Shown here in pieces: positions 652 through 25,743 of a DNA stretch of 64,000 nt (the first letter of the stretch is position 1; each line of letters begins with the position of its first letter). The stretch covers positions 1,054,001 to 1,118,000 of the forward strand of contig NZ_CP115300.1 in NCBI RefSeq assembly GCF_027625935.1. The letters run 5' to 3'. The position numbers were made by a program, and so were the translations under genes. The notes beneath the pieces are model-generated. The model did no database searches and was not told where the DNA came from. It saw only the letters and a list, made by a program, of their open reading frames with translations. The DNA comes from Streptomyces camelliae. GTDB lineage: Bacteria; Actinomycetota; Actinomycetes; Streptomycetales; Streptomycetaceae.

Positions 652-2469
652 TCAGGCGGAGATGTCCAGCCGGGGTTCGCCCACCGGCTCGCCGAGCACG
701 GCGGTGAACACCTCCGTGCGCACGGTGAGTCCCTCCGGGCCCTCCTCGAAGACAGGCGCGAAGGCTCCCCCGGGCCCGTACCGTACGGCGAACACGTGCA
801 GCCCGGCGGGGGCGCCCGGGGCCGGGTCGGCCTCCAGGGCGGTGGAGGAGACCAGGTGGCGCCAGCCTTCGTCCGGGTTGCCGTAGCCGCGCGGGTCGGC
901 GGCGAGGGCGAACGCGGCCTGTTCCTGGGTGAGTTCGCCGCGGGCGTCGAAGTGGTCGTCGCCCGGCGCCGCCGGGTGCGTGAGGCGCAGACCGCCCGCC
1001 GCCGTGACCTGGCCTTCGGCGGTGCGGCGGACCCGGTCGCCGTCATCGGCGGCGTACGGCATCCCGGACAGCAGGTACGGCGCCCCGTCGAGGCGTTCCA
1101 CGGCGACCGTCACCCACAGGCTGGTGCCGTCGGTGACGTACAGCGAGCGGACATGGCGCAGGACGTGGTCGCGGCCGACGACCGGTTTGGTGACCAGTTT
1201 GGCGGCGAGCCCGTCGGCGCGGACGTCGCGGACGCGTACCTGGCCCATCGGGCGGCACAGCAGGAAGCCGTCGGTGACCGGGCCGAAGCCGTGCTGGCGG
1301 CGCACGGCGGCGGGCAGGTAGTAGGTGCCGGCGGCCTCGATCAGGGCGGGGGTCATCCGGCTGTCGAAGGCCACGGAGACCGTGCCGGAGCGCAGTTGGT
1401 GGCGGGTGGGGCCGGGGGACGGGGTGCGGTGCCAGCGGGTCGGGTCCTGGATCTGCCAGACGAGCATGAAGGCGAAGTGCCCGTCGATCCGGCCGTCGCC
1501 CTGCACGGCGTGCCGGCCCCAGCGGGTGTCGCCCCGGTACCGGCCCAGGTCGGCGCCGATGCGCGCGCCGAAGTACCGCAGGCCCAGGACGGATTCGAAG
1601 CCGGAGTGCTGTTCGCTGTAGCGGGGTCCGCCGCAGTCGTAGCCGCCGCTGGTCAACCGGGCGTCGAGATAGCGGGCAAGGGTGTCCCCGTCCTCGGCGA
1701 ACATCTCCGCGCCGCTGACCCGGTGGGCCTGGGCGAGGAACGACAGGGAGATCGGGCCGTAGTTGTTGTCGTAGGCGCCGCCGTGCTCAGGCGGCAGCAA
1801 TGCGCCCCGGTCACGGACCCGGTGGGCGCGGATCTCCTCGGCGTACAGGCGCAAAGCCCGTGCACGCAGCAACTCCCCCTCGCTGTCCGGGAGATGGCGG
1901 GCGAGCATCAGGCCGCCGACCACGCAGCCGATGGCCTGGTTGCCGGCCTCCTGCGGGTTGAAGAAGGTCGCCTCGGTCAGCCACTGCCAGTAGCCGTGCG
2001 CCAACTCCCTCAGTTCGGTGCGCTGTTCGCCGTACACGAGGCCCTCGGCCGCGTCGAGGACGTTGACCGCCTGGAGCAGCGCCCAGACCGTGCTGGGCCA
2101 GTCACCGATGGGGTGGGCGCCCGCTTCGAGGACGTAACGGGCGTACGGCAGGCCCGAGTTGGTGACACGCAGGTTGGGGTAGCCGGGGTTGTCCTCGGTG
2201 TAGACGCGTTCGCGCAGGTGAAAGGCGAGGCTGGTGCGGACGGCCGCGGGGAGGCGGGGGTCCTTGCCGCGCTGCCAGGCGAGGGCGAGCAGGGAGGTGA
2301 TGCCGAGCGAGGTGTCGCCGATGTCGTCGCCGGCGTCCGGGTGCTCAAGGTTGCCTTCCGGCGTGATCCGCGCCAGGGCCGCCTCGACGACGTCCGCGAG
2401 GACCGCGTCGTACGCCTCGGGGGTGTCCGGCAGACCGTGCAGCGGGCCGAGCTGGCGCGGCAGGTGCAT
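652..2469 (-). CDS. Alpha/alpha-toroid lyase-like protein (heparinase II/III-type fold suspected)
   Basis: 605 residues, no signal peptide or membrane segment. The first half is helix-rich (residues 1-300) with patches typical of toroid polysaccharide lyases and unsaturated-uronyl enzymes: FFNPQEAGNQAIG, HGGAYDNNYGPISL and GGPRYSEQHSGFE, where conserved Asn, Tyr and His could be catalytic. The second half is beta-rich, as in lyase C-terminal sandwiches. I do not recognise a named family. It is the last gene of a minus-strand operon with a sugar ABC importer and a second toroid protein, so a cytoplasmic role in breaking down an imported oligosaccharide, perhaps uronic-acid-containing, is inferred. 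The ATG at 2469 is preceded by a purine-poor stretch, so the start is fairly but not fully certain. Confidence 0.6.
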   Translation of the reverse strand: MHLPRQLGPLHGLPDTPEAYDAVLADVVEAALARITPEGNLEHPDAGDDIGDTSLGITSLLALAWQRGKDPRLPAAVRTSLAFHLRERVYTEDNPGYPNLRVTNSGLPYARYVLEAGAHPIGDWPSTVWALLQAVNVLDAAEGLVYGEQRTELRELAHGYWQWLTEATFFNPQEAGNQAIGCVVGGLMLARHLPDSEGELLRARALRLYAEEIRAHRVRDRGALLPPEHGGAYDNNYGPISLSFLAQAHRVSGAEMFAEDGDTLARYLDARLTSGGYDCGGPRYSEQHSGFESVLGLRYFGARIGADLGRYRGDTRWGRHAVQGDGRIDGHFAFMLVWQIQDPTRWHRTPSPGPTRHQLRSGTVSVAFDSRMTPALIEAAGTYYLPAAVRRQHGFGPVTDGFLLCRPMGQVRVRDVRADGLAAKLVTKPVVGRDHVLRHVRSLYVTDGTSLWVTVAVERLDGAPYLLSGMPYAADDGDRVRRTAEGQVTAAGGLRLTHPAAPGDDHFDARGELTQEQAAFALAADPRGYGNPDEGWRHLVSSTALEADPAPGAPAGLHVFAVRYGPGGAFAPVFEEGPEGLTVRTEVFTAVLGEPVGEPRLDISA

Positions 2470-2522
2470 GGGAGGAGGTCAGCCCTTCATTCCGGTGGTG
2501 GCCATGGCGTGGGTCGTCGGGG

Positions 2523-4241
2523 TCACACGGCAGGTGCGGGCCGGCGGGCGCGCAGTGCGACGGTCAGTGTGTGCGGGCCGAGTCCACCGAGGTAGACGCG
2601 GTTCCCGGTCGTCGCATCGGTTCCGCCCACCACGGTGTAGTCCTGACCCGGGTCGTACCGCAGTATGTCGCTCCGGTCCGGCCCGGCAAGCGGTTCGCCT
2701 GCCTCGACGTCGGCCTCGACCCGGATCTCGTCGTCACCGACCCGGTAGGTCATCGGCCCGGTCGTCAGGCACCAGCGTCCGTCGCCGATCGGTACGGCGC
2801 CCTCTGGCACGCCGCCCGGCCGGAAGGTCAGTTCGAGAGCCCAGGGAACCCGTGGTCCGCTGATGTCGATCCGCAGGTCGGCACCGTCTTCCCTGAGGTC
2901 CGCTTCGACGCGGGTCGTGTGAGAGACCTCGTCCCGAGGCCGGTCCGGGAAGGCCATCGCGGCCGAGAAGCGGCCCTCGTCCGCCATACGGTAGGCGCCG
3001 TCGTCCCGGCGCCGGCCCGGCGGGAGCGGCTGGTAGTAGGCGGCCGACAGGGTTTCGGTGAGCCGGTAGCTGCTGTCGGTGAGCCGTTGCATGCCGGCGG
3101 CGCGGAACGGGCCCATGTCGAAGAACCCCCGCGAGAGACGGACCGCGTCGAGGACGGCGTCGCCGGCGAACAGGCGCAGGAAGGTGGGATTGCAGGCGAG
3201 GCCCGAGCGGATGCGCCGGTGCTCGGGGACGTCGGAGCCGCCGTACACCACCGTGTGCGCGCCGGCCGAGGCGCGTGTGGCGAGGCGTGCGGTGGTGAGG
3301 TACCGGTCGCGGGGCAGTGTCTCCACGGCCGGTGCGGGCAGTGCACGGCACAGGTCCGGGGTGAGGAGGGTCTCGGCGAGCAGGCCGGGGTCGTCGATGC
3401 CGCCGGCGGCCGCCAGCCGGGCCGCCCGGCTGAAGTCGCCCCGGCCGGTGCGGATCGCGAGCAGCCGGTAGTGCGGCAGGTAGGGCGCCAGCGGGAACGG
3501 GTGGTTCTGGTCCTGCCGTCGCGAGTGGACGGTCTCCACCGTGCCGTCCGGCCTGATGAGGTCCAGGGTCGTGGCGAGGTTGCGTTCGACGGCGTCCAGC
3601 AGGTCGGCACGGCCGAGCACGCCCGCCAGCAGCAGGAGCGAAGGGTTGGACACGTGGGCCGCGTAGATGGCGCTCCGTTCCGAGTACAGGCCCTCCGCGT
3701 CGATGTCGACGCCCTCGGCGAGCCATTCCGCTACGCGGTCGAGCAGCCGGTCGTCGGGGAACGACCGGTGCAGCCGGGCCAGCGCCGCGCACAGCTCCCA
3801 GCGGTGGTTCGGGGTGTGCACCCCACCGGTCAGGAGACTGCCGGTGGCGGCGCCGGCGATCTCGGCGAGCGCGGCCGTGACGTCGCGCAGTTCGGGCCCG
3901 GCGCCGGCGGCGAGGAGGTGCGCGTCGCACACGTCGTTGACGGTGAACGCGGAGTCCGGCGGTGACTGCACGTTGTCGCCGCCCGCGAAGAGGCCGGAGG
4001 GCGTCTGCGCGGCCCGCAGGGCACGGAGGTGGGTCATCGTGGCGGCGACGGCCTGCCTGCTGCCGTGCAGCGCCGAGTCCGGGGAACGGTACGCCGCGAC
4101 CAGAGTCTTCACCCGGCGGGCCAGGCCGCGGTGCGGCACGCCGGTGGGTTCCTCGTCGGGGCCGGCCGCCAGCGGGGCGGCCAGCCGGTCGGCGGCGCGG
4201 GCCACCGCGCGGACGAACTCGTGGTCGAGCGGGGTGGGCAC
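2523..4241 (-). CDS. Heparinase/lyase-like toroid protein
   Basis: 572 residues from a GTG at 4241, chosen because it sits 2 bp after the stop codon of the permease gene; the open frame extends further upstream but only as a shadow of that permease. Residues about 100-330 form helical repeats with GGVHTPNHRWELCAALARL, LYSERSAIYAAHVSNPSLL and HSRRQDQNHPFPLAPYLPHY. The NHRWE, Tyr and HSRRQ/NH clusters resemble active sites of heparinase II/III-like lyases. The C-terminal 200 residues are beta-sandwich-like. No export signal is seen, so it is presumably cytoplasmic and acts on what the ABC system imports. Tight spacing implies translational coupling to the transporter. The exact reaction is unknown. 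Confidence 0.65.
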   Translation of the reverse strand: MPTPLDHEFVRAVARAADRLAAPLAAGPDEEPTGVPHRGLARRVKTLVAAYRSPDSALHGSRQAVAATMTHLRALRAAQTPSGLFAGGDNVQSPPDSAFTVNDVCDAHLLAAGAGPELRDVTAALAEIAGAATGSLLTGGVHTPNHRWELCAALARLHRSFPDDRLLDRVAEWLAEGVDIDAEGLYSERSAIYAAHVSNPSLLLLAGVLGRADLLDAVERNLATTLDLIRPDGTVETVHSRRQDQNHPFPLAPYLPHYRLLAIRTGRGDFSRAARLAAAGGIDDPGLLAETLLTPDLCRALPAPAVETLPRDRYLTTARLATRASAGAHTVVYGGSDVPEHRRIRSGLACNPTFLRLFAGDAVLDAVRLSRGFFDMGPFRAAGMQRLTDSSYRLTETLSAAYYQPLPPGRRRDDGAYRMADEGRFSAAMAFPDRPRDEVSHTTRVEADLREDGADLRIDISGPRVPWALELTFRPGGVPEGAVPIGDGRWCLTTGPMTYRVGDDEIRVEADVEAGEPLAGPDRSDILRYDPGQDYTVVGGTDATTGNRVYLGGLGPHTLTVALRARRPAPAV

Positions 4242-4243
4242 GG

Positions 4244-5146
4244 TCAGTCCTTCAGTCCGGCATTGATGTCGGCGCCCATGACGTAGCGCTGGAAGACCAG
4301 GAAGATGACGATCAGCGGGATCATGGAGATGACCGATGCGCCGAGCAGTACCGACCAGTTGATGTTCTGCGCACCGACGATGCTCTGGATGCCGATCTGC
4401 ACGGTGAACTTGTTGGGGTCGTTGAGCATCAGAAGCGGCCAGATGTAGTCGTTCCACCGCCACTGGAAGGACAGGATGGCGAGGGTCAGCATGATGGGCC
4501 GGGAGAGCGGCACCATGATCCGCGCGAAGATCGACAGTTCGCGGGCGCCGTCGATGCGTGCGGCTTCGACGAGTTCGTCGGGAACCGTCAGGAAGAACTG
4601 GCGGAACATGAAGCATCCGGTCGCGGTGAGTACGGCCGGGAGGATGATGCCGGTGAAGGAGTTGTAGAGGCCGAGGTTGCGGACCACGAGGAACTCCGGG
4701 GCGAGCATGACCTCGGACGGCAGCATCGTGGTGGCCAGGATGCAGATGAAGAAGACCTTGAGCCACTTGTTGTCGTACTTCGCCAGCGCGTACCCGGTGC
4801 AGCAGCTGGCTCCCACCGTGAGGATCGTCGTGATCACGCACACGAGGGCCGTGTTGATGAAGTACTGGGAGAAGTTGGCGCTGCGCCACGCCGTCAGGTA
4901 TCCCGACAGGGTGGGGTGGTGCGGAACCAGCGTCAGCGGGTAGGAGAACAGATCCCCGGCCGGTTTGAGGGAGCTGAGGATGAACCACAGCACCGGCAAC
5001 CCGTAGAGGCACGCCAGGATCCACAGCAGTGTCGTGGCGGGTACCGCCCGCCGGAGCCCACCGCCGCCCGCGCTGCGGGGCCGCTTCTTGGAGACGGACC
5101 GTCCGGGATCGGCGTCGACCGGGCGTGCCATGTCTGTGGTTGTCAT
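4244..5146 (-). CDS. Carbohydrate ABC transporter permease (MalG-type)
   Basis: 300 residues with about six membrane segments, starting after a charged cytoplasmic leader (TTLLWILACLYGLPVLWFIL is the first). The EAARIDGARELSIFARIMVP stretch is the EAA loop that contacts the ATPase. MalG-type permeases end with short tails such as GADINAGLKD, as here. The ATG at 5146 overlaps the TGA of the upstream permease by four bases, a standard coupled start. No ATPase gene is present in the operon; in Streptomyces such importers normally share the MsiK ATPase, which is family knowledge rather than something visible here. The protein forms the membrane heterodimer with the upstream permease. Confidence 0.93.
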   Translation of the reverse strand: MTTTDMARPVDADPGRSVSKKRPRSAGGGGLRRAVPATTLLWILACLYGLPVLWFILSSLKPAGDLFSYPLTLVPHHPTLSGYLTAWRSANFSQYFINTALVCVITTILTVGASCCTGYALAKYDNKWLKVFFICILATTMLPSEVMLAPEFLVVRNLGLYNSFTGIILPAVLTATGCFMFRQFFLTVPDELVEAARIDGARELSIFARIMVPLSRPIMLTLAILSFQWRWNDYIWPLLMLNDPNKFTVQIGIQSIVGAQNINWSVLLGASVISMIPLIVIFLVFQRYVMGADINAGLKD

Positions 5147-6054
5147 CGGTTCTCCACCCGCCGGTTGACGATCAGCTGGATGATCGCGACGGCCATCAGG
5201 ATGAGCATGAGCACGAATGACGCGGCGCTCGCGTAGCCGATCTGGCCCCGCTGGAAGCCGGTCTGATAGATGTACTGGACAAGCAGGTTGTTCGACGTTC
5301 CGGGTCCGCCGTTGTTGAGGGAGACGAACAGCGGGTATTCCTTCATCGCGTTGATCGTGTTGAGCAGGATGACGATGAACGAGGTGGGCGCGATGCTCGG
5401 CAGCGTGATGCTGATGAACTGGCGCCACGGTCCGGCGCCGTCGAGCGCGGCCGCCTCGTAGTACGACACCGGTACGTTCTTGATCGCCGCGATGAACAGC
5501 AGCATCGAGAAGCCCGTCCAGGCCCAGGATGCCGCCATCACCACCACCAGCAACGACAGGTCCGCGTTCGACTGCCACGGAATCGCGTGCCCGCCGAACT
5601 TCTCGACGACGTAGTTGACCAGTCCGAAGTTCTCGCCGAACAGCCACCGCCACAGGACACCCACGACGATGGGCGACAGAAGCCACGGGATGAAGAAGAC
5701 GACGCGGGCGACCGACGTGCCCTTGGCGTGCTTGCTCACCAGCATGTTGGCGATGAGCAGCGAGAGTGCGAAGTTCAGCGGAACGAAGAGGACGGTGTAC
5801 AGCAGCGTCCGGGTCAGCGCGTCGTAGAAGGAGGAGTCCCCGAACAGGTTGCTGTAGTTGTCCAGTCCGACGAACTGGAACGCCCCCACGCCCGTGTAGT
5901 TCGTGAAGGAGTAGACGAGCCCGATCACCGCCGGCCACACGAAGAACAGCGCGAAGAGCACGACATTGGCCGCGATGAGGACGAGCGGCGCGATCGTGTA
6001 GCTGCGGCGTCTCCTGGGCGGGCTCGCGGACACGTCCGAGGCGCGTTTTGTCAT
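5143..6054 (-). CDS. Sugar ABC transporter permease (MalF/UgpA-type)
   Basis: 303 residues. After a basic N-terminus (RRRRSYTIAP) come six hydrophobic segments, the first ending WPAVIGLVYSFTNYTG. The EAA loop appears as YEAAALDGAGPWRQFISITL. This is the MalF-side half of the channel that passes the sugar delivered by the lipoprotein encoded just upstream (gap of 117 bp). The downstream MalG-type gene overlaps its stop by four bases. Length and topology are normal. Substrate is not deducible, though linkage to two toroid lyase-like enzymes favours an oligosaccharide. Confidence 0.93.
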   Translation of the reverse strand: MTKRASDVSASPPRRRRSYTIAPLVLIAANVVLFALFFVWPAVIGLVYSFTNYTGVGAFQFVGLDNYSNLFGDSSFYDALTRTLLYTVLFVPLNFALSLLIANMLVSKHAKGTSVARVVFFIPWLLSPIVVGVLWRWLFGENFGLVNYVVEKFGGHAIPWQSNADLSLLVVVMAASWAWTGFSMLLFIAAIKNVPVSYYEAAALDGAGPWRQFISITLPSIAPTSFIVILLNTINAMKEYPLFVSLNNGGPGTSNNLLVQYIYQTGFQRGQIGYASAASFVLMLILMAVAIIQLIVNRRVENR

Positions 6055-6171
6055 CTTCCTGACTCCGTGCTGGTGGAATGGGTTCCTGTGGGCTCACGCC
6101 ATGAGCCCGGCGTCACGTGGGCGAGCAGGGCCGGGCGGCGGTGTCTCGACCCCGCCGCCCGGCCCTGTGGT

Positions 6172-7500
6172 CTACGATCCGCCGCCGACCTGCTGGTTGT
6201 AGCCGGCCACGATGTTCTCCAGGGCCTTGTCGGCCGACTGCTGGCCGTTGATCGCCTTGCCGAGCTCCGTCTTGGTCGGGTCGGTGGTGAGGCTCTTGCC
6301 CTTCAGCACCCAGTTCGTCTGCGCGGTGTTGAAGTACCCGGAGATCGGGGCGTAGAGCGGGATCTCCTGGTTGTACAGCTTGAACGCCGCCTGCGCCGCC
6401 TCGGAGGTGAAGGGGTACTTCGGGTTCAGGCCGCTCTCGACCGGGAGGAACCCGGAGGACTCGACCAGCTCGGTGTACTGCTTCGGCTCGTACACCCAGG
6501 CCAGGAACTTCTGCGCGGCGGTGGCCGCGGCGCCGTTGTTGTTGAACCCGACCATCATGCCGCCGCTGTTGACGTCGCTCGCCTGGACCGGCTCGGCGGG
6601 AGTCGGGACGCTCGCCCAGTCGAACTTCTTGATGCTCTCCGCGAAGGCGGGAACCTGCCACACGCCGGACCAGTAGGCGACCACGTCACCGCTCTGGAAC
6701 ATGGCCGACGGGTCGGCGCCGCTGGTCCACACCGACTTCGGCATGGTCTTGTCGTCGTTCAGTCCGACGAAGTAGTTCACGGCCTTCTTGGTCGCGTCGT
6801 CCACCGAGAACGTGCCGGAGGAGTCCGCGTGGACGTACTGCCCGCCCATCTCGTACACCATGGCGCGGAGCCGGGACGGCGACTGGTCGAACGTCAGGGA
6901 GTACTTGGCGCCGGTCTTCTCCCGGACCGTGTTCGCCGCCTTGATGAAGTCGGTCCAGGTCCAGGTCTTCTGGGGCGAGGTCGGGAAGGAGACGCCGGCC
7001 TTCTTGAACAGGGTCTCGTTGATGTACAGGCCGGACGCGGTGACGTCCGAGGGGATGGACAGCACCTTCCCGGACGAGTCCTTGGCGAGGAAGTTGCCGT
7101 TGATGTTGTTGCTCTTGTTGTTGGCGATGGAGCTGAGGTCGAGCAGCTTGTTCGACCAGATCGGGTCCAGCGCGGGCACGTCCGCCACGTCCGGCAGAGC
7201 GTTCGCCTGAGCGGCGTTGTGGAGCTTCGCCGGGTAGCCGTCGTAGGGGATGTTGACGAGCTTGACGTCGACGCCGGTTTCCTTCTTGTACTGCGCCACC
7301 AGCTTCTTCCAGCCCGCGTCCTGCCCCGGAACCGTGGAGATCCAGAACGTCAGCGACTTGGAGGTCCCGCCCGAGCCGGACCCCGACCCGCAGGCGGAGA
7401 GCAGAAGGGCACCTGCCGCGGCCACGGCAGCGAGGGGAACCACGCGACGTATGCCGCCGCGGCCGAGTCGGCGGGAGCGCCGCACACCCACACTGGTCAT
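6172..7500 (-). CDS. Extracellular solute-binding lipoprotein, sugar ABC importer (family 1)
   Basis: 442 residues from ATG at 7500. Basic n-region RRSRRLGRGG, hydrophobic core, and lipobox LLSAC followed by GSGSG linker show a lipoprotein signal with lipidated Cys near residue 36. The mature part begins LTFWISTVPGQDAGWKKL, the N-terminal strand of family 1 sugar-binding proteins, and contains MFQSGDVVAYWSGVW, matching the usual hinge/pocket region. It captures the substrate outside the membrane for the two permeases downstream in the same operon. The open frame runs 84 codons further upstream, but that part lacks a signal and crosses the AT-rich promoter, so it is rejected. Confidence 0.93.
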   Translation of the reverse strand: MTSVGVRRSRRLGRGGIRRVVPLAAVAAAGALLLSACGSGSGSGGTSKSLTFWISTVPGQDAGWKKLVAQYKKETGVDVKLVNIPYDGYPAKLHNAAQANALPDVADVPALDPIWSNKLLDLSSIANNKSNNINGNFLAKDSSGKVLSIPSDVTASGLYINETLFKKAGVSFPTSPQKTWTWTDFIKAANTVREKTGAKYSLTFDQSPSRLRAMVYEMGGQYVHADSSGTFSVDDATKKAVNYFVGLNDDKTMPKSVWTSGADPSAMFQSGDVVAYWSGVWQVPAFAESIKKFDWASVPTPAEPVQASDVNSGGMMVGFNNNGAAATAAQKFLAWVYEPKQYTELVESSGFLPVESGLNPKYPFTSEAAQAAFKLYNQEIPLYAPISGYFNTAQTNWVLKGKSLTTDPTKTELGKAINGQQSADKALENIVAGYNQQVGGGS

Positions 7501-7734
7501 CTTCGATCCCTTTTCGTCGTAGGGGGACGGAGCACGGCGCCGACCGAGGCGGCACGGGTGCATTTTGCAGGAAATTTCGCTTTCCGGGGGCGCGGCCTCG
7601 CCCGGCCGCGTCGTCTTCGCGGGTGGGATCCCCGGCCATGAGGGCCGTCGTCGCACAAGCACGCCCTCGTGCGGCTGCCGTACTTCGCGTACGGGCGGGA
7701 CGCCAACCCAAGCCGGTGTCCCGCCCGGCTTAGA

Positions 7735-7751
7735 AAGCGCTTGTCCGGACA
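7735..7751. promoter_or_regulatory. Adjacent palindromes upstream of the ABC operon
   Basis: AAGCGCTT (7735-7742) abuts the perfect palindrome TGTCCGGACA (7742-7751), in the gap between the binding-protein gene and the ROK regulator gene. Nearer the operon start, AGGAAATT (7569-7576) is repeated in the ROK/kinase intergenic region. These are plausible operator elements for the ROK protein or a LacI-type regulator; binding is inferred only. Confidence 0.4.
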
Positions 7752-7774
7752 TTGGCAGAGCGAGCCGGAAGCCG

Positions 7775-8929
7775 TCAATGCCTCCATCGCGCGGGCTCGG
7801 TCACGGTTCGGACACCTCGGGCCACCGCGAGCCGGGCCGCGCCCACCACGGTGCCGAGATCGCCGACCGTGCTGCTGACCACCTCGGTGGGCCAGCTCAG
7901 CCGGGCCAGCTCGGCCCGCACCCCGGGCAGGAGCTGCGGGTCCGCGCCGGTGCTGCCACCGAGCACGATCAGCCCCGGGTCCAGTACGGCGGCCACGGCG
8001 GCGGCCAGCCGGCCCACGTCGGCGGCGTGGGCGTCGACCACGGCACGGGCCGGTCCCTGCCCGCCGCCGGCCAGCGCGAACAGGCGCTCGGTGGTCTGCG
8101 GGCACGGACCGTTCGCGTCCGGTGCGTCCCGCCAGGCCTCGGCGGCGCGGCGCAGCAGGGAGCGCGCGCCCATGTACTCCTCCAGGGCCTCCAGGCGCGG
8201 CTCGCGGCCCTCGTCCCAGGGGTAGGGCAGCCGGGCCAGCTCGCCGGCCGCGCCGTTCGCCCCGCGCAGCACCTGGCCACCGACGACGATGCCGAGGCCG
8301 ACGCCCACGCCGACCCGCAGATAGCCGAAGGTGCCCCGGCCCCGGGCGGCACCCTCGTGCAGCTCGGCGAGGGCGGCGCAGTTGACGTTGTTCTCCAGGT
8401 GGACCGGGACGCCCGGGGGCAGCGCGACGGCCACGGCGTCGAAGACCGGGCCCGCCTTGGCGGTCGCCGGACGCTCCCCGGAGCTCTCCGTGGCCGGTGC
8501 GCTGACGTCGCCGATCGCGACGACGATGGCCCGCAGCGGGGCCGCGGCCGGCAGCGCGTCGAGGGCTTCGGTCACCGCGTCCGCGGCCCCCGCCCGTGAG
8601 CCGGTGGCCTCGGCGAGCAGCGTGCCGTCCAGGGCGCAGCCCCGCACCCGGGTGAGGTCCGGGCCGAGATCCACGGCCAGGACCGCGCCGGCCTCCGGCC
8701 CGAGCCGGTAGACGGCGGCGGTGCGGCCGGTGCCACTGGAGGCGGTGCCGGAGTGAGCGGCGAGCCCGGCGCTCTCCAGCTCCGCGACGGCGGAGGACAC
8801 CGTCGGCTTGGACAGGCGGGCCAGGCTCGCCAGTTGCGGCCGGGTCGCGCTGCCCGCCTCGGCGAGCACGGCGAAGACCGCGCTCGCGCTCTCGGTCAGC
8901 CGGGGCACAGCCACCACGTCGTGTTCCAC
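7775..8929 (-). CDS. ROK-family transcriptional regulator
   Basis: 384 residues from GTG at 8929, four bases after a GGGAG ribosome-binding site. Residues 10-65 form a winged helix-turn-helix (RPQLASLARLSKPTVSSAVAELESAGL), followed by a sugar-kinase-like ROK fold starting AGAVLAVDLGPDLTRVRG. The usual ROK zinc motif (CxCGxxGCxE) is absent: the corresponding segment reads NGAAGELARLPYPW. It probably represses the adjacent sugar uptake operon and/or the divergent kinase gene until a sugar or sugar phosphate binds. The gene lies upstream of and co-directional with the ABC operon but separated by 274 bp with its own palindromes. Confidence 0.88.
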   Translation of the reverse strand: MEHDVVAVPRLTESASAVFAVLAEAGSATRPQLASLARLSKPTVSSAVAELESAGLAAHSGTASSGTGRTAAVYRLGPEAGAVLAVDLGPDLTRVRGCALDGTLLAEATGSRAGAADAVTEALDALPAAAPLRAIVVAIGDVSAPATESSGERPATAKAGPVFDAVAVALPPGVPVHLENNVNCAALAELHEGAARGRGTFGYLRVGVGVGLGIVVGGQVLRGANGAAGELARLPYPWDEGREPRLEALEEYMGARSLLRRAAEAWRDAPDANGPCPQTTERLFALAGGGQGPARAVVDAHAADVGRLAAAVAAVLDPGLIVLGGSTGADPQLLPGVRAELARLSWPTEVVSSTVGDLGTVVGAARLAVARGVRTVTEPARWRH

Positions 8930-8958
8930 GGTTCTCCCACTAGGTCGTCGCGAGACTC

Positions 8959-8996
8959 TTGACGCACTGTACTTCGTTAGTTAATTTCCTAACGAA
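8959..8996 (+). promoter_or_regulatory. Promoter with overlapping inverted-repeat operator
   Basis: TTGACG (8959-8964), a 17-bp spacer and TAATTT (8982-8987) form a near-consensus housekeeping promoter for the kinase gene. A perfect inverted repeat, TTCGTTAG (8973-8980) and CTAACGAA (8989-8996), covers the -10 box, the layout expected of a repressor operator. The ROK gene starts 30 bp away on the other strand, so autoregulation is also possible. Confidence 0.75.
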
Positions 8997-9144
8997 CTTC
9001 ACGGTACTCGCCTGCCGTACTCCGCCAGAGGCCCGTCCCGGGGCTTCCCGACCGTTCTGCCCCCGCTTCATCCAGGCACGGTTCGCCCGCCGTCGCAGCA
9101 CCACGCGCACGACAAACGACAGCGCACACGACGAAAGAGGTCCC

Positions 9145-10044
9145 GTGCAGGACTCCACGCCCGTCCTGGTCGGCATCGACGTGGGCGGCACCAAGACGCA
9201 TCTGCGTGCCCTGGCCGGCCACACCCCGATCGCCGACCACGTCCGTTCGAGCAGCGGCTGGCGGCCGCACGATCCGGTCGCCGCCGCCGGCTGGCTGGCC
9301 CGGCTGACCGCCGAGGCCCTGCCGGCCGGCCTGCGCCCGTCGGCGCTGGCGGTGGGCGGCCACGCCTGCGAGACCCCGCGCCAGTGCGAGCAGATCCGCA
9401 CCGCCCTGCATCTCCACTTCGACGCGCCCGCACTGGTGGTGGGCGACGCCGAACTCCTCGTCCCCGCCGCCGCCCTGGACAAGGGCGCCGGTCTGGTCGC
9501 CGGCACCGGCTCGGTGGCCGTGGGCCGCCGCGCCGACGGTACGCCGGTGCAGGTCGGCGGCTGGGGCGCGGTCCTCGGCGACGAGGGCGGCGCGGCTGGG
9601 CTGGTCCGCGAGGCGGTGCGCGCCTGCTGGGCCGCCCACGACCGGGGAGAGGCACCCGACACGCTGGCGGCGGCGCTCCTCGACGCGTTCGGCGTGCCCG
9701 AAGTGCCCGCGCTGGGCGCGGCGTTGGAGAGCGCCCCCGATCCGTCCGCCGCGTGGGGCCGGGCCGCCCCGGCCGTCTTCTCCGCCGCCGAGGCGGGCTC
9801 CGTGCTCGCCCGGGAGGTGATCGCCGCCGGGGGCCGCGGCCTGGCCGCGCTGATCGTCCTGCTGGAACGGCGGGGTGCGGCGGTCGACGACGTGGTGGTC
9901 GCGGGCAGCACGATCCTCGCCCAGCCACCGCTGTACGACGCCTTCGCCGGCGCGCTCGCCGCGTCCCTGCCGTCGGCCCGGCCCCGGCCGCTGCGGGTGC
10001 CGCCGGTTCAGGGGGCGGTGGCGCTCGCGCGTGCGCTGCTGTGA
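9145..10044 (+). CDS. BadF/BadG/BcrA/BcrD-type ATPase, probable N-acetylglucosamine kinase-like sugar kinase
   Basis: 299 residues from GTG at 9145, chosen for its GAAAGAGG ribosome-binding site at 9133-9140; longer readings would include the promoter. The N-terminus VLVGIDVGGTKTHLRAL is the phosphate-1 loop of the ASKHA ATPase fold. LVAGTGSVAVGRR and GGWGAVLGDEGGAAGLVREAV match the adenosine/phosphate motifs of GlcNAc kinase-like enzymes. It should phosphorylate an imported amino sugar or hexose in the cytoplasm. It is divergent from the ROK regulator, suggesting one regulon with the ABC/lyase operon. The exact sugar is inferred, not shown. Confidence 0.85.
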   Translation: MQDSTPVLVGIDVGGTKTHLRALAGHTPIADHVRSSSGWRPHDPVAAAGWLARLTAEALPAGLRPSALAVGGHACETPRQCEQIRTALHLHFDAPALVVGDAELLVPAAALDKGAGLVAGTGSVAVGRRADGTPVQVGGWGAVLGDEGGAAGLVREAVRACWAAHDRGEAPDTLAAALLDAFGVPEVPALGAALESAPDPSAAWGRAAPAVFSAAEAGSVLAREVIAAGGRGLAALIVLLERRGAAVDDVVVAGSTILAQPPLYDAFAGALAASLPSARPRPLRVPPVQGAVALARALL

Positions 10045-10290: not shown

Positions 10291-12198
10291 ATGCCGTCAC
10301 CCGCCGGGCACCCCTCCTCCGCGCTGAACCGGCGCGGCTTCCTCACGACCACGCTGGCCGCGTCGGCGGGGGTGCTCGCCGCCCCGGCCGTCGCCGTCTG
10401 GCTGCCGGCGGCCGACGCCAAGGCCGCGACGGCGCCGGCCGCGTTCGTGGACGACTACAGGACCAACGTCGCCGCCAACCTGACGCCCGAGACCAACGCC
10501 GTGGTCCGGGCCCTCGGCGGCTTCGCCCAGGTGTGGAAGACCGGCTCCGCCTGGAACACCGGCGCCCCGCTGCGCCCCGAGATCCTCCGCGCCGACCTGC
10601 GCTACTGCGCGACGACCACCGCCCGGCGCACCGACGCCCAGGCCAAGGAAGCCTTCGTCTACGACCGCCAGCACCAGAGTTACGCGATGATCGCCGGCCT
10701 CGGCCCGCTGGCCGGCCTGTACACGGCGGGCGCCAAGGCGGTCACCTCGATCACCGGCGCGCCCGACGGCACCCCGGCGACCACCGTCAGCGACGCCGTG
10801 CCCGCCGGCGCCCCGGCCGGCTCGGCGCTCGGCGCGGGCGCCCACGACTCCGCGCTCGGCAAGGTCGCCGAACTCGTCGACACCCTCCGCGGCCCCTACG
10901 CCTCCGGCAACCCCTCCAAGTACGCCTACCAGTACCCGCGTCCCTGGCGCCTGAACGAGAACAGCGAGGTCGTCGACACCGGGAAGACGGACGCGTTCGG
11001 GTACCCGGTCTACGACTCCCCCGTGGTCGTCGCCCCGCAGCTGCTGCGCCAGCGCGGCACCTCCCCGGCCGACGACGGCGGCTTCCCGAGCGGTCACACC
11101 AACGCCTTCCATCTGGCCGCGCTGGCCTACGCGTACGCCGTGCCGGAGCGCTTCCAGGAGCTGGTGACCCGCGCCTTCGAGCTGAGCCACACCCGGATCG
11201 TGGCCGGCATGCACCACCCGGTCGACGTCATGGGCGGCCGGATCATGGCCACCGCCCTCGCCGCGGCCACCCTCGCCGACCCGGCCAACGCCGGCCTGAA
11301 GGCCGCCGCCCGCGCCCAGGCCCTCGCCTACTTCACCGCGCAGACCGGCACCACGGCCGACACGCTGTACGCCTACGCGCACACCGGCACCGACCCGTAC
11401 GCCGACCGGGACGCCAACGCGCGCGCGGTCCGGCCCCGGCTGACGTACGTCCTCACCCGGCAGGGCCGCGAGGTGCCGCTGACCGTGCCGAAGGGCGCCG
11501 AGGTGCTGCTGGAGACCCGGCTGCCGTATCTGAGCGCGGACCAGCGCCGCGAGGTGCTGCGCACCACCGGGCTGCCCTCCGGCTATGTGCTGCTCGACGG
11601 TTTCGAGCAGTGGGGCCGGCTGAACCTGTTCGCCGCGGCGGACGGTTACGGCGCCTTCGACACGGACGTCACGGTCACGCTGGACGCGGCGGCGGGCGGC
11701 TTCTCGGCGGCCGACGCCTGGCGCAACGACATCGACGGGCGCGGCGGTCTGACCAAGCGCGGCACCGGCACGCTCACGCTGACCGGCCGCAACCGGTACA
11801 CCGGCGGGACCGTACTGGCCGGGGGCACGCTGGTCGCCGCCGGCGAGGACGCCCTCGGCCACGGGGACGTGCGGGTGACGGACGGCACGCTGCGGATCGA
11901 CGGGCGGCTGCGGGTGCGCGGCGCCTACGCGCAGGACGCGGGCACGCTGGAGGTCACCCTGCGCGCGGGCGGCAAGGCCCCGCTGACGGCCCGTCACCTC
12001 GCGGTGCTGGGCGACTCGGCGGTGCTGTCGCTGCGCCTCGACACCGAGCGGCCGCCGGCCGCGGGCAGCACGGTGCCGGTCCTCGACGTGCCCCGGCTGC
12101 GCGGCCGGTTCGCCCGGATCGACGTGAACTCCGAGCGGCTGCGGGCCGTACCCGTGTACACGGCAGAAGGTCTGTCGGTACGACTCGTGCAGCGATGA
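10291..12198 (+). CDS. Tat-exported PAP2 phosphatase / vanadium haloperoxidase family protein with autotransporter-type repeat
   Basis: 635 residues. NRRGF at 13-17 followed by a hydrophobic stretch ending near AKAATA is a Tat signal, so the protein works outside the cell. The PAP2 active site is complete: Lys210 and Arg217-Pro218 (motif KX6RP), P266-S-G-H269, then Arg302, His308 and Asp312 (RX5HX3D). These residues bind phosphate in acid phosphatases or vanadate in haloperoxidases. Residues about 480-560 carry an autotransporter-associated beta-strand repeat (RGTGTLTLTGRNRYTGGTVL and GGTLVAAGEDALG), which forms short beta-helix turns. A PHO-box-like array upstream supports a phosphate-scavenging phosphatase rather than a haloperoxidase. 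Confidence 0.88.
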   Translation: MPSPAGHPSSALNRRGFLTTTLAASAGVLAAPAVAVWLPAADAKAATAPAAFVDDYRTNVAANLTPETNAVVRALGGFAQVWKTGSAWNTGAPLRPEILRADLRYCATTTARRTDAQAKEAFVYDRQHQSYAMIAGLGPLAGLYTAGAKAVTSITGAPDGTPATTVSDAVPAGAPAGSALGAGAHDSALGKVAELVDTLRGPYASGNPSKYAYQYPRPWRLNENSEVVDTGKTDAFGYPVYDSPVVVAPQLLRQRGTSPADDGGFPSGHTNAFHLAALAYAYAVPERFQELVTRAFELSHTRIVAGMHHPVDVMGGRIMATALAAATLADPANAGLKAAARAQALAYFTAQTGTTADTLYAYAHTGTDPYADRDANARAVRPRLTYVLTRQGREVPLTVPKGAEVLLETRLPYLSADQRREVLRTTGLPSGYVLLDGFEQWGRLNLFAAADGYGAFDTDVTVTLDAAAGGFSAADAWRNDIDGRGGLTKRGTGTLTLTGRNRYTGGTVLAGGTLVAAGEDALGHGDVRVTDGTLRIDGRLRVRGAYAQDAGTLEVTLRAGGKAPLTARHLAVLGDSAVLSLRLDTERPPAAGSTVPVLDVPRLRGRFARIDVNSERLRAVPVYTAEGLSVRLVQR

Positions 12199-20243: not shown

Positions 20244-21635
20244 TCACCGGGACCACAGACCCGGCACCAACTCCCGTACGCCGACGGGCCGTCCGGTCTC
20301 GAACGCACGGTTGGCGGCGAGGCCGACGGCGAGGGCCAGCGCGCCGTCGCGTTCGGTGGCCGTCGGCGCCGTACCGGTACCGACGACCGGACCGGGACCG
20401 ACGCCGTCGACGGGACGAGGCCCCGGACCGGGGCCGGCCGCGTCCACCGGCCCGAACAGGGCGTCCAGCATCCGCGGGTCTCCCCCGCCGTGTGCCTCGT
20501 GCGCGGTCCGCAGCGGGATGTCGGCCGGAGGCCGCCACAACGGGCGCAGCGTGAGGCGCACGCCGCCCGCGTGCCGGGCCGACGTGTCCCCGTGCAGCGC
20601 GCCGCTGCCGCCGGTGCGCTGCGGGGCGGGTGACTGCCAACGGCTCTCCTCGACCTCCAGCTCCAGCCGGCCGGCGCTGCCGTTGACCATGACCCGGTAG
20701 CCCTCCCACGGGGAGTAGGCGGTCAGGTGGTAGGTCATCGTGGCCCCGCGCGCGTACCGGACGAGGACGGCCATGTCGTCCTCGATGCCGATGGGGCCGT
20801 CGAAGACGTTGCGGTCGCGCAGATAGCCGTCGTCCCCCTCGGCGTCGAGGTAGAGGGCGCGCAGCGTGGCGTCGGCCGCGAGGTCGAGCGCGAAGGGGTC
20901 GCCCGCGGCCTCGGGCGCGCCATGGGCGCGGACGTAGTCCCGGCGCAGGCCGTGGCGTTCGCCCGCCTCGGCGCCGTAGAAGCCGAGCCTGCCGTAGCCG
21001 AAGACCTCGGCGGGTTCGTCGCCGAGCCACCAGTTGACCAGGTCGAAGTGGTGGCTCGCCTTGTGCACCGTGAGGCCGCCGCTGTGCCGCTTGTCGCGGT
21101 GCCAGCGGCGGAAGTAGTCGGCGCCGTGGCGGACGTCGAGCAGCCACTCGAAGTGCACGGAGAGCACCTCGCCCACCGCGCCGTCGGCGAGCAGGCGCCG
21201 TACCTCCTCGTGCACCGGATTGAAACGGTAGTTGAAGGCGACCGTGAGGGAGTTGCCGGTGGTACGGACGGCCTCCAGGATGCGGGCGCAGCGGTCGGCG
21301 TCGACGGTCATCGGCTTCTCCGTGACCACGCGGCAGCCGGCCTCCAGGGCGGGCACGATGTAGTGGTCGTGGGCGGAGTCGACGGTGGTGACGACGACTT
21401 CGCCGATGTCCTCCTTGGCGAGCATCTCGGTGAAGCGGTCCGGGTCCCAGGTGGCGGCCGGCGCTGCGCCCGCCTCGGTGAGCAGCCGGTTGTGGAAGGC
21501 CATCCGGGTGGGGCTCGGGTCGCACAGGGCGGCCACCTGGCGGCCGGGGCGGGCGGCGAGGGCCTGGGTGAACAACCGGGCGCGATGGCCGGTTCCGACG
21601 AGTGCGGTGCGCAGCGGAGGCTGGGTTCGGCTCAT
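20244..21635 (-). CDS. Gfo/Idh/MocA-family oxidoreductase
   Basis: 463 residues. N-terminal Rossmann domain: RTALVGTGHRARLFTQALAA, later EKPMTVDADRCARILEA, the conserved E-K-P segment that holds the cofactor and catalytic Lys. The C-terminal sheet domain contains FNYRFNPVHEEVRRLL and DYFRRWHRDKRHSGG, as in enzymes acting on sugars, inositols or glycosides. A low-complexity Gly/Pro insertion (AAGPGPGPRPVDGVGPGP) lies near the C-terminus. The likely reaction is NAD(P)-dependent oxidation or reduction of a sugar ring hydroxyl. Divergent from the FAD oxidoreductase gene, with 112 bp between. Confidence 0.87.
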   Translation of the reverse strand: MSRTQPPLRTALVGTGHRARLFTQALAARPGRQVAALCDPSPTRMAFHNRLLTEAGAAPAATWDPDRFTEMLAKEDIGEVVVTTVDSAHDHYIVPALEAGCRVVTEKPMTVDADRCARILEAVRTTGNSLTVAFNYRFNPVHEEVRRLLADGAVGEVLSVHFEWLLDVRHGADYFRRWHRDKRHSGGLTVHKASHHFDLVNWWLGDEPAEVFGYGRLGFYGAEAGERHGLRRDYVRAHGAPEAAGDPFALDLAADATLRALYLDAEGDDGYLRDRNVFDGPIGIEDDMAVLVRYARGATMTYHLTAYSPWEGYRVMVNGSAGRLELEVEESRWQSPAPQRTGGSGALHGDTSARHAGGVRLTLRPLWRPPADIPLRTAHEAHGGGDPRMLDALFGPVDAAGPGPGPRPVDGVGPGPVVGTGTAPTATERDGALALAVGLAANRAFETGRPVGVRELVPGLWSR

Positions 21636-22983: not shown

Positions 22984-25743
22984 GTGGTCCGTGCCCGGCA
23001 CATAGGGGTGACCGCCGCCGCGTTGCTCGCGGTGGCGGGGGCATCCCCAGGGGCGGCAGTCGCCCAAGGCCGACCACCGGCACATACGGCCGAGTCAGGG
23101 GCATCAAGTGAGGGCACGCTGCCACCGGGCTGGCGGATCGCCGGCGGTCGGTCGCAGGCGCAGCTGGTGTGGCGGTCGGACCGGCCGGTGCCGATGGGTG
23201 ATGCCAGGGTCGAATTCCGGTCGGGCGGGCGCCTGTTGGGAGTGCCGCAGCCGAGCGGGGACGGCCACAGCTTCCGGCTGCCGCTGGACGGGCAGCGCGC
23301 CGGCGATCTGCACGGACTGCAAGTCTGGTCCGGCGGACGGCGGTTGGACGCGCGCGGGACGACCGGGGACATGTCGGCGGCCGAGCCTCCCGCCCCGCTG
23401 CCCGCGAACCCCGTCGACCCGGGCAAGCCCGGCTCGTACCGGACCAGGACGGGCGAGTACAGCCTCAAGTCGGTGAAGCTGCCCGGTCTTTCGGTGCCGG
23501 TGGAGATGCGCGGGGTGGTCGTCGCCCCCGTGGGCGCGTCCGGCGAGCGGCCGCTCGCGCTGTTCCTGCACGGCCGCCACTACACCTGCTACCAGGGCAA
23601 GCAGATCAGCGGCGACTGGCCCTGCAAGACCGGCTGGAAGCCGGTGCCCAGCCACCGCGGCTATCTGCGCGACCAGCAACTCCTGGCATCCCAGGGCTAT
23701 GTGACCGTCTCGATCTCCGCGGGCGGCATCAACGGCCAGGACTTCGCGGCCGAGGACGGCGGCGCCCAGGCCCGCTCCTCGCTGGTGCGGCTGCACCTGG
23801 CCCGGTGGGCCGACTGGGCCGCGCACCCCGAGACCGCTCCGGCCGTCGTACGCCGGTCACCGCGCGCCGATCTGTCCCGGGTGCTGCTCGTCGGGCACTC
23901 GCGGGGCGGCGAGGGCGTCAACCGGGCGGCCCTGGACAGCCTCTACCCGCCGCCGGCCGACCAGGACGGCTATCACGGCCCGGTCCGCTGGTCCGTCCGC
24001 GGCATGGTGCTGATCGGTCCCACGGTCTTCGGTCAGAACCCGGTGCCCGACGTGCCGTCGGTGACGGTCCTGCCAGGCTGCGACGGTGACGTCTCCGACC
24101 TGCAGGGCGAGGTGTACGTCGACGGGACCCGCGCGGTCAGCGACGGCAGCGCGCTGCACAGCGCCGTGTACGTCATCGGCGCCGACCACAACTTCTTCAA
24201 CTCCGAGTGGACGCCCGGCAGGTCCGCGGCGCCCTCGGAGGACGACTTCTCCGACGACCCGCAGCACCCGGATCCTGTGTGCGGCAAGCGCGCGGCGACC
24301 CGGCTCACCGCCGACCAGCAGCACCGGGCCGGCTCGACGTACATCGCCGCAGCCGCGCGGCTGTTCCTGGCCGGTGACGACCGGGTACGGCCGCTGCTGG
24401 ACGGTTCCGGGAAACGGGCGCCATCGGCGGATCCGGCGCGCGTCCTGAGCCATGCGGTGGGGGCGCGCCGGGGTGCCGGGTTCCTGCCGGACGGCGGGGT
24501 GTCGGTGACCGGCGCCCGGCTGTGCGACGCGGTGAACCCCAGCCCGGGCAAGGCGTGTCTGGACGGGCGCGCGGCGGGCGCCTCGCCACACTTCGCGCAG
24601 TGGGAGACCGACCGGGAGGCGGGCCGGCACGCGATCGTGCTGCGCTGGGCGCGCACCGGTGCCCTTGCCCGGGTGAGCACCTCGCACCCGGTGTCGCTGA
24701 GGGGCTCCGAGGCGCTGGCGCTGCGGCTGTTCGTGCCGCCGAACTCCCGGAGCACCCAGCTGGATGTGTCCCTCACCGACACCGCCGGCCGGAAGGTGAC
24801 GCTGGGCCGGGTGCGGGCCGACGGACTGCCCGGCAGTGGGCGCACCGCGTCGTACTGGGCGCGCGAGTTCCGGGTGCCGCTGACCGCGGCGACGCGCGGG
24901 CGGTTCGCGCTCGGCTCGGTCAAGTCCCTTGAACTGACGTCGCGTTCGGCGACCGGGCAGGCCTGGCTGATGGACGCGTGGGGCTGGCGGCCCGGGACAC
25001 CGGCGGTGCGGGCGGCCGCGCTGCCCCGCGTGGACATCGGCCGGATGACGGTCGACGAGGGCGACTCGGGTGTGCGCACCTACCGCGTTCCGGTCCAGGT
25101 GACCGGCCACGGCAGCGGACAGGTCCGGGTGTACGTGGTCGACCCGGCCACCGGGACGGCGAAGGACCGGCTGGTGACGGTGCGTCCGGGCGGTCACGAC
25201 ATCGACGTACCGGTCGAGGTGAAGGGCAACACGCACTACGGCCCCGACGTGTCGCACGACGTCCTGGTCAAGGCGGTGCACGGGGCGGTCGTCGGCTCCT
25301 ACCGGGGCGGGATCACGGTCCACGACGACGATCCGGCGCCGACGATGACCGTCACACCGGTCGCCGACCGGGTCACCGAGGGGAAGTCCCTGACGTGGCG
25401 GCTGTCGCTGTCGCAGGCGGTGGACGTGGACATGAGCGCGATGTTCACCGCGGTGCCGCCCGGCACCGGTCCGGAGCTGTCCACGAAGGACGTCCCGGCG
25501 CGCTGGCTTCAGGAGACCGCCGGGGTGAAGCCCGATCCGGAGCGTCCGCTGTCAAAGGCCGGGATCTACCTGTGGATGGACGTCCCTGCGGGGAAGACGA
25601 GCGTGGACATCACCGTGCCCACGGTCGAGGACAAGGTGAAGGAACCGGCCGAGGCGGTGCGGTTCCAGCAGACCGACATGAACACCGATGAGCCGAAGGA
25701 CGGCGGGCTGGTGCTGACCGGGTCGGTGCTGGACGCGTCGTAG
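22984..25743 (+). CDS. Large secreted alpha/beta-hydrolase with C-terminal Calx-beta-like domains
   Basis: 919 residues from GTG at 22984, four bases after GAAGGAGGA. A signal peptide (VTAAALLAVAGASPGAAVAQ) marks export. The catalytic domain, about residues 150-500, shows LALFLHGRHYTCYQ (oxyanion region) and LLVGHSRGGEG, the GxSxG nucleophile elbow. GADHNFFNSEW supplies a likely catalytic His. After a jelly-roll-like region, residues about 690-910 contain Calx-beta-type segments (MTVDEGDSGVRTYRVPVQVT, DRVTEGKSLTWRLSLSQ). It probably cleaves an ester in an extracellular polymer, lipid or natural product; the substrate is unknown. Monocistronic and convergent with the PPOX gene. Confidence 0.8.
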   Translation: MVRARHIGVTAAALLAVAGASPGAAVAQGRPPAHTAESGASSEGTLPPGWRIAGGRSQAQLVWRSDRPVPMGDARVEFRSGGRLLGVPQPSGDGHSFRLPLDGQRAGDLHGLQVWSGGRRLDARGTTGDMSAAEPPAPLPANPVDPGKPGSYRTRTGEYSLKSVKLPGLSVPVEMRGVVVAPVGASGERPLALFLHGRHYTCYQGKQISGDWPCKTGWKPVPSHRGYLRDQQLLASQGYVTVSISAGGINGQDFAAEDGGAQARSSLVRLHLARWADWAAHPETAPAVVRRSPRADLSRVLLVGHSRGGEGVNRAALDSLYPPPADQDGYHGPVRWSVRGMVLIGPTVFGQNPVPDVPSVTVLPGCDGDVSDLQGEVYVDGTRAVSDGSALHSAVYVIGADHNFFNSEWTPGRSAAPSEDDFSDDPQHPDPVCGKRAATRLTADQQHRAGSTYIAAAARLFLAGDDRVRPLLDGSGKRAPSADPARVLSHAVGARRGAGFLPDGGVSVTGARLCDAVNPSPGKACLDGRAAGASPHFAQWETDREAGRHAIVLRWARTGALARVSTSHPVSLRGSEALALRLFVPPNSRSTQLDVSLTDTAGRKVTLGRVRADGLPGSGRTASYWAREFRVPLTAATRGRFALGSVKSLELTSRSATGQAWLMDAWGWRPGTPAVRAAALPRVDIGRMTVDEGDSGVRTYRVPVQVTGHGSGQVRVYVVDPATGTAKDRLVTVRPGGHDIDVPVEVKGNTHYGPDVSHDVLVKAVHGAVVGSYRGGITVHDDDPAPTMTVTPVADRVTEGKSLTWRLSLSQAVDVDMSAMFTAVPPGTGPELSTKDVPARWLQETAGVKPDPERPLSKAGIYLWMDVPAGKTSVDITVPTVEDKVKEPAEAVRFQQTDMNTDEPKDGGLVLTGSVLDAS

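Follow-up and report, generated by a model that had tools for sequence, protein, structure and literature searches.

A carbohydrate-uptake locus with two unassigned proteins

The window, a stretch of 64,000 nucleotides from the 9.6 Mb genome of Streptomyces camelliae (contig NZ_CP115300.1, positions 1,054,001 to 1,118,000 of the forward strand), carries at positions 652 to 10044 a sugar-uptake locus that includes two proteins of unassigned family, here called A and B. Genes on the minus strand occur in the order ROK-family regulator, solute-binding lipoprotein, MalF-type permease, MalG-type permease, B and A, while the gene for a BadF-type kinase lies on the opposite strand (Table 1). The binding lipoprotein and two permeases are those of a carbohydrate importer of the MalEFG type. 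The MalF and MalG genes overlap by 4 bases, the start of B follows the MalG stop by 2 bases, and the start of A follows the B stop by 53 bases; because of the overlap and the short gaps, a single transcript for the importer, B and A is plausible. All members of this gene set, as listed in the original prediction, are recovered by Pfam matches or gene calls. Its statement that the operon lacks both an ATP-binding cassette (ABC) ATPase and a glycoside hydrolase also holds, in that neither is recognised by Pfam or NCBIfam models among the proteins of 652-10044. Of the short sequence patches that it singled out, NHRWE is located in B, and YDNNYGP and GGPRYSEQH in A.

Neither A nor B scores above the curated cut-off of any Pfam or NCBIfam family, Hepar_II_III_C (PF07940) included, neither matches glycoside hydrolase family GH88 (PF07470), and neither has a credible sequence relative in PDB. 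PDB chains of polysaccharide lyase families PL33 and PL8 gave no phmmer or profile match to A or B at E<=1. Assignment of A and B to a family by sequence therefore failed. Two relatives of B from Subdoligranulum and one member of a divergent subfamily, B', likewise have no Pfam match above cut-off. A and B are two different proteins, as had been proposed, and appear to be new relative to Pfam, NCBIfam and the sequences in PDB.

Comparison of each gene with five relatives shows more differences at third positions and four-fold sites than at first and second positions. For A, 36-43% of four-fold sites and 9-16% of second positions differ; for B, the ranges are 21-30% and 7-9%. This pattern fits purifying selection, and, together with a gene order that recurs in many loci, it indicates that A and B behave as genes. 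No signal peptide was seen by eye in either protein, which suggests a cytoplasmic location.

Table 1. Genes and putative regulatory sites of the uptake locus, with positions numbered from the first letter of the window.
Feature	Position	Strand	Remarks
Solute-binding lipoprotein (SBP)	6172-7503	-	SBP_bac_8 109 bits, SBP_bac_1 105 bits; lipobox LSAC by eye
MalF-type permease	5143-6054	-	BPD_transp_1 71 bits; UgpA and MalF models below cut-off
MalG-type permease	4244-5146	-	BPD_transp_1 68 bits; UgpE and MalG models below cut-off
B, 572 amino acids, predicted alpha/alpha toroid plus beta-sandwich	2523-4241	-	no Pfam or NCBIfam family; GTG start
A, 605 amino acids, predicted alpha/alpha toroid plus beta-sandwich	652-2469	-	no Pfam or NCBIfam family
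ROK-family transcriptional regulator	7775-8929	-	ROK 79.8 bits
BadF-type kinase, divergent, probably for an amino sugar	9139-10044 (best start)	+	BcrAD_BadFG 49.8 bits, cut-off 31.5
Importer promoter and putative operator	7733-7778	-	TTGACG 7778-7773, 18 bases, CAATGT 7754-7749, CCGGACAAGCGCTTTC 7748-7733
Palindrome TTCGTTAG-N8-CTAACGAA	8973-8996		between ROK and kinase genes; putative ROK operator

Predicted folds and conserved residues

The original prediction described A and B as toroid lyase-like enzymes. Judged by predicted secondary structure and by Foldseek, both models consist of an N-terminal alpha/alpha toroid followed by a C-terminal antiparallel beta domain, and their best Foldseek matches are lyases of uronate-containing polysaccharides. 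At E<=0.001 these matches comprise, for B, 28 chains that are all polysaccharide lyases (best BtPL33HA, 5.9e-7) and, for A, 21 chains of which 20 are polysaccharide lyases and the remaining one a uronyl epimerase (best GAGase VII, 5.2e-6), many of the chains counted being repeats of one protein. The best structural matches of B belong to PL33 and PL8, in which a toroid is joined to a beta-sheet domain (excerpt of PMC11848413), and those of A to the PL35 GAGases and to lyases of PL15, PL17, PL21 and PL39. Both proteins also have the alginate lyase of Agrobacterium (3a0o/3afl) among their top structural matches. The models, of modest confidence, support for A and B a fold of toroid and beta-sandwich like that of polysaccharide lyases of the PL8, PL12, PL15, PL17, PL21, PL23, PL33, PL35 and PL39 type.

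All 7 aligned relatives of A have its patches YDNNYGP and GGPRYSEQH unchanged. For B, an alignment was built from B itself, two close relatives, ten B' sequences and two Firmicutes sequences at 24-27% identity; NHRW is invariant in all 15. This alignment has 38 invariant columns, among which are D96, H142, N145, H146, R147, W148, E176, D179, Y186, E188, R189, S190, R242, Q243 and D244.

Distribution, exchange of parts and regulatory sites

Scanning of genome contigs for relatives of B returned 306 stretches, of which 80 were examined; 79 of these are titled Streptomyces and one Actinobacteria bacterium OV320. With seven further stretches of 4.7 kb, the window's own among them, which are too short to hold the upstream genes, these form a set of 87 loci. 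Counting only matches that cover over half of the query, B was found in 87 loci, MalG and MalF in 86 each, the binding protein in 78, ROK in 75, the BadF kinase in 73 and A in 66. In Streptomyces sp. CoH27 most of the locus is 95-99% identical, and B 86%.

Profile searches for A and B in 295 genomes each of the same genus, taken as one set and sorted by hand, found full-length A in 61 genomes, canonical B in 50 and both in 36. Full A occurs without full canonical B in 25 genomes, and 14 others have canonical B but lack a full A; the Fisher p for co-occurrence is 8e-19, uncorrected for relatedness. This survey and the phylum searches below scored only some four first-look candidates in each genome, so that distant copies may be missed. 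Fragments of A are kept in 6 of the 14 B-only genomes and pieces of B in 2 of the 25 A-only genomes, one of which (G448) may reflect only an assembly break, since it lies at a contig end. Two more genomes have a fragment of A only. The A fragments, found in eight genomes (G250, G403, G412, G418, G449, G450, G595 and G601, with internal stops in G403), suggest repeated loss of A.

Surroundings were examined for 10 of the 25 A-only loci. Eight have a different importer between ROK and A, which compares with the present one at 37-39% for MalF, 30-31% for MalG and 26-29% for the binding protein in the six where it matched; the other two (L149, L156) keep the same importer and lack B. A mechanical gene picker found ROK in 10 and the BadF kinase in 7 of the ten. 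Because either protein can be a genome's sole one, A and B may substitute for or complement each other at a single step. The additional genes that lie between A and a nucleoside-kinase-like gene were considered as part of the pathway and rejected, their content varying from locus to locus.

Beyond the genus, a profile search of the phylum found B in 3 of 296 genomes and A in 3 of 296, all of them belonging to the window's genus and one A match being a fragment; single-sequence searches of the phylum had matches in 3 of 296 and in 2 of 246 genomes. Two scans of IMG/VR returned no relative of A or B. Plasmid records yielded no A relative outside Streptomyces and include two Subdoligranulum records with distant B relatives. 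One of these relatives adjoins a GH88 gene (289 bits), in a stretch that also has a Hepar_II_III_C match short of its cut-off (18 of 24 bits) and genes for GH2 and ROK proteins, and in which ABC importer genes can be made out by eye; the second shows no comparable surroundings by eye. Both Subdoligranulum stretches (L091, L092) are labelled plasmids, and L091 may be a piece of chromosome because it has, by eye, genes resembling V-type ATPase subunits.

The divergent B' occurs in 11 of the 295 genomes (390-436 bits), four of them with A, and is not found in the S. camelliae genome. The 11 B' loci (L137-L147) are of the same genus, with 38-41% identity to B by blastp, and in the ten that were aligned (L138-L147) a twin-arginine-like signal is seen by eye near the likely start. 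In L140, B' has as neighbours LacI, DUF6807, two Gfo/Idh/MocA oxidoreductases and a further ABC importer, together with a cupin match below cut-off. B' is probably a secreted branch with a different pathway. A Gfo/Idh/MocA oxidoreductase gene also occurs in the window (20244-21635, minus strand), roughly 10 kb away from the gene for the kinase; its product is 55-58% identical to one encoded near B' in L142, L144 and L145.

Two conserved sites accompany the locus. Between ROK and the binding-protein gene, the block CAATGTCCGGACAAGCGCTTTCT comprises 23 consecutive columns identical in all 76 sequences compared, namely the window and 75 loci in which both genes were found in order, and TTGACG stands 18 bases upstream of it. 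The block can be read as ATG-TCC-..., yet it shows no synonymous change, which argues for a function at the DNA level. The 16-base core of the importer site is perfect in 9 of the 10 A-only loci, including 7 of the 8 with the other importer, and L152 has no match to it. The part AAGCGCTT of the importer site has a LacI-like look. In the palindrome, the left arm is identical in 74 of the 74 sequences used and the right arm in 72; it is present in 8 of the 10 A-only loci and was not found in L152 and L153. Palindrome and importer site each have one perfect copy in the genome, so control looks local. A wider regulon was rejected, other site matches carrying 3 mismatches and being no commoner than in a reversed control.

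Other genes lie nearby. A GH65 family gene is found 0.9 kb beyond the left edge of the window (L116 6745-9108; genome C1 1050745-1053108), and L115, L149 and L156 have, by eye, GH65-like genes close to the locus as well. At 10291-12198 (plus strand) the window encodes a PAP2 phosphatase-like protein with a passenger-associated-transport repeat (PATR), which has a relative in 77 of the 87 loci. At 22984-25743 (plus strand) it encodes a protein of 919 amino acids with no Pfam or NCBIfam match, whose sole PDB hit is protein-asparaginase 9xg1 (235 bits).

Proposed function and alternative readings

The nearest PDB chain to the kinase is an N-acetylmuramic acid/N-acetylglucosamine kinase, 8zo3; its score against the NagK model is 48.5 bits, far under the cut-off of 370. 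The PDB chains nearest to the binding protein are sugar-binding proteins; its relatives there include binders of acarbose/maltose and of arabino- and xylo-oligosaccharides, and none points to uronate. Our preferred reading, tentative and somewhat less likely than not, is that A and/or B cleave an imported uronate-hexosamine oligosaccharide in the cytoplasm, probably by beta-elimination. The lipoprotein and the MalF and MalG permeases would import the acidic oligosaccharide, energised by an ATPase encoded elsewhere; Streptomyces importers usually share the ATPase MsiK. A and/or B would then break the bond beside the uronic acid, most likely by beta-elimination, and the BadF kinase would phosphorylate the hexosamine so released. 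If a lyase cut a hexosamine-uronate disaccharide, hexosamine would become available to the kinase with no need for GH88. The ROK protein probably represses its own gene and the kinase gene through the palindrome, and the importer promoter would be governed by its own conserved site. Support for this reading comes from the lyases matched by Foldseek, the GH88 neighbour in Subdoligranulum, the likeness of the kinase to the 8zo3 enzyme and the oligosaccharide binders related to the binding protein, and further from the co-occurrence of A and B and the single promoter core that precedes two different importers.

The logic of import followed by cytoplasmic cleavage is already known, and it is the A and B enzymes that appear new. 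Alginate is taken up by ABC import with a binding protein and then cleaved by cytoplasmic lyases, as excerpts of PMC8286568 describe for the pit system of Sphingomonas A1 and for alginate users among the Firmicutes; there too an acidic saccharide is imported and cut inside the cell. The present locus differs from these alginate systems in having no recognised ATPase gene in the operon and in having a BadF kinase and a ROK regulator, and no PDB chain is credibly related to A or B by sequence. For glycosaminoglycans, ABC import of uronate-hexosamine disaccharides and cytoplasmic cleavage are described in the excerpted text of PMC5430744 for Streptobacillus moniliformis, whose cluster cleaves by the GH88 enzyme UGL, whereas the S. 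camelliae genome has no GH88 match. The original claim that no described pathway of this composition is known is too strong for the general scheme; this particular gene set did not turn up in literature term searches, made without the locus tags of other strains, so that a paper may be missed.

Several observations count against a uronate lyase. Confidence in the models is modest (predicted local distance difference test score, pLDDT, 66.9 for A and 61.3 for B, with residues 304-382 of B below 50), and for the Foldseek matches at E<=0.001 the query-normalised template modelling score (TM-score) is 0.30-0.39 and the root-mean-square deviation about 13-17 A. Profile comparison by hhalign with six PL8 proteins gave probabilities of 3-6%, not significant; these came from the six of eight PL8 loci that yielded a frame passing the motif filter, the other two being left out. 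A and B show no detectable homology to each other by profile, nor is the similarity of either significant to a Subdoligranulum heparinase-like protein or to a same-genome Hepar_II_III frame. Importer, ROK regulator and kinase have nothing specific to uronates about them, and GH88 has no match anywhere in the genome.

The residues expected of a lyase weigh on the same side. Toroid lyases use an Asn, a Tyr 53-63 residues further along and a His that in most cases belongs to the beta domain (PMC12088678, Table 4, as excerpted), as in N238, Y291 and H444 of PL33 (PMC11848413). We searched for an invariant Asn, a Tyr 50-60 residues further and a His another 130-170 further. In A, N177, Y233/Y237 and H393 are invariant, with Asn and Tyr spaced much as in the PL35, PL15, PL17, PL21 and PL39 lyases to which it has no sequence match, but 47-60% of shuffles of the invariant letters (267-319 columns) match the pattern as well. 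A also has N177-H229-Y237-R283 in a PL8-like order, but 5.5-9.6% of shuffles match this too. In B, no invariant set of Asn, Tyr and His at lyase spacing was found across the 15 sequences, nor any invariant His of the beta domain such as H444 of PL33. Its sole invariant residues of these types are N145, Y186 (41 residues on), H142 and H146; Y193, 48 residues past N145, is Tyr in 13 of 15 sequences, and the remaining two have a Tyr one place on. B, if a lyase, is therefore not a standard one. Predicted fold and Foldseek matches support the description of A and B as lyase-like; the canonical catalytic set was not found in B and in A occurs no more than chance would give.

A rather unlikely alternative makes both proteins toroid-scaffold glycoside hydrolases which cut a neutral or amino-sugar oligosaccharide, their likeness to lyases being one of fold only. 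GH127 hydrolases follow the lyases in the Foldseek list of A along its length (E 0.003), as does GH88 over one domain only (E 0.0065), invariant acidic residues are numerous in B (D96, E176, D179, E188, D244), and the kinase is amino-sugar-like; on the other side, neither A nor B is matched by any glycoside hydrolase model, and all Foldseek chains at E<=0.001 are enzymes acting on uronates. Distinctly improbable is a role of A and/or B as sugar epimerases or isomerases, whether uronyl C5-epimerases like human dermatan sulfate epimerase 1, which is among the Foldseek matches of A at E<=0.001 and in both VIA-align lists, or 2-epimerases, since cellobiose 2-epimerase and its relatives head the VIA-align scores when the toroid half of A or B is used alone. 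High Z is common among toroids in VIA-align, the B toroid also scoring with complement and TEP toroids, and absence of a family from its list is no exclusion. To our knowledge 2-epimerases lack a beta-sandwich, and the importer operon would be left incomplete if none of its enzymes cleaved a bond. Least probable is that A or B represents a new type of unsaturated-uronyl hydrolase, taking the place of GH88 and acting on disaccharides made by a PL8 lyase encoded elsewhere: the genome has one PL8 match, one Hepar_II_III_C match and no GH88 match, and the toroid matches of A include GH88 proteins, but among 16 genomes PL8 occurs in 4 of 4 with B and also in 8 of 12 without, which shows no association, and the beta-sandwich points to lyases.

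Returning to uronate-bond cleavage, a bolder form of the idea is unlikely as a whole, that A and B are two new families that independently perform the same cytoplasmic reaction, that importer and enzyme modules are exchanged under one promoter, and that in Streptomyces the locus stands in for the GH88 route. The active site of B would in that case be unlike that of the Asn-Tyr-His lyases, with H142, N145, H146, R147, Y186, E188, R189, R242 and D244 as candidate residues from conservation. Streptomyces are prominent soil polysaccharide degraders, and their intracellular use of acidic oligosaccharides seems little mapped. Two conserved families, both missing from Pfam and NCBIfam and each able to take the other's place in a regulated uptake locus, provide a testable entry to it, and B, if it is indeed a lyase without the usual triad, would extend the catalytic designs known for the toroid fold.

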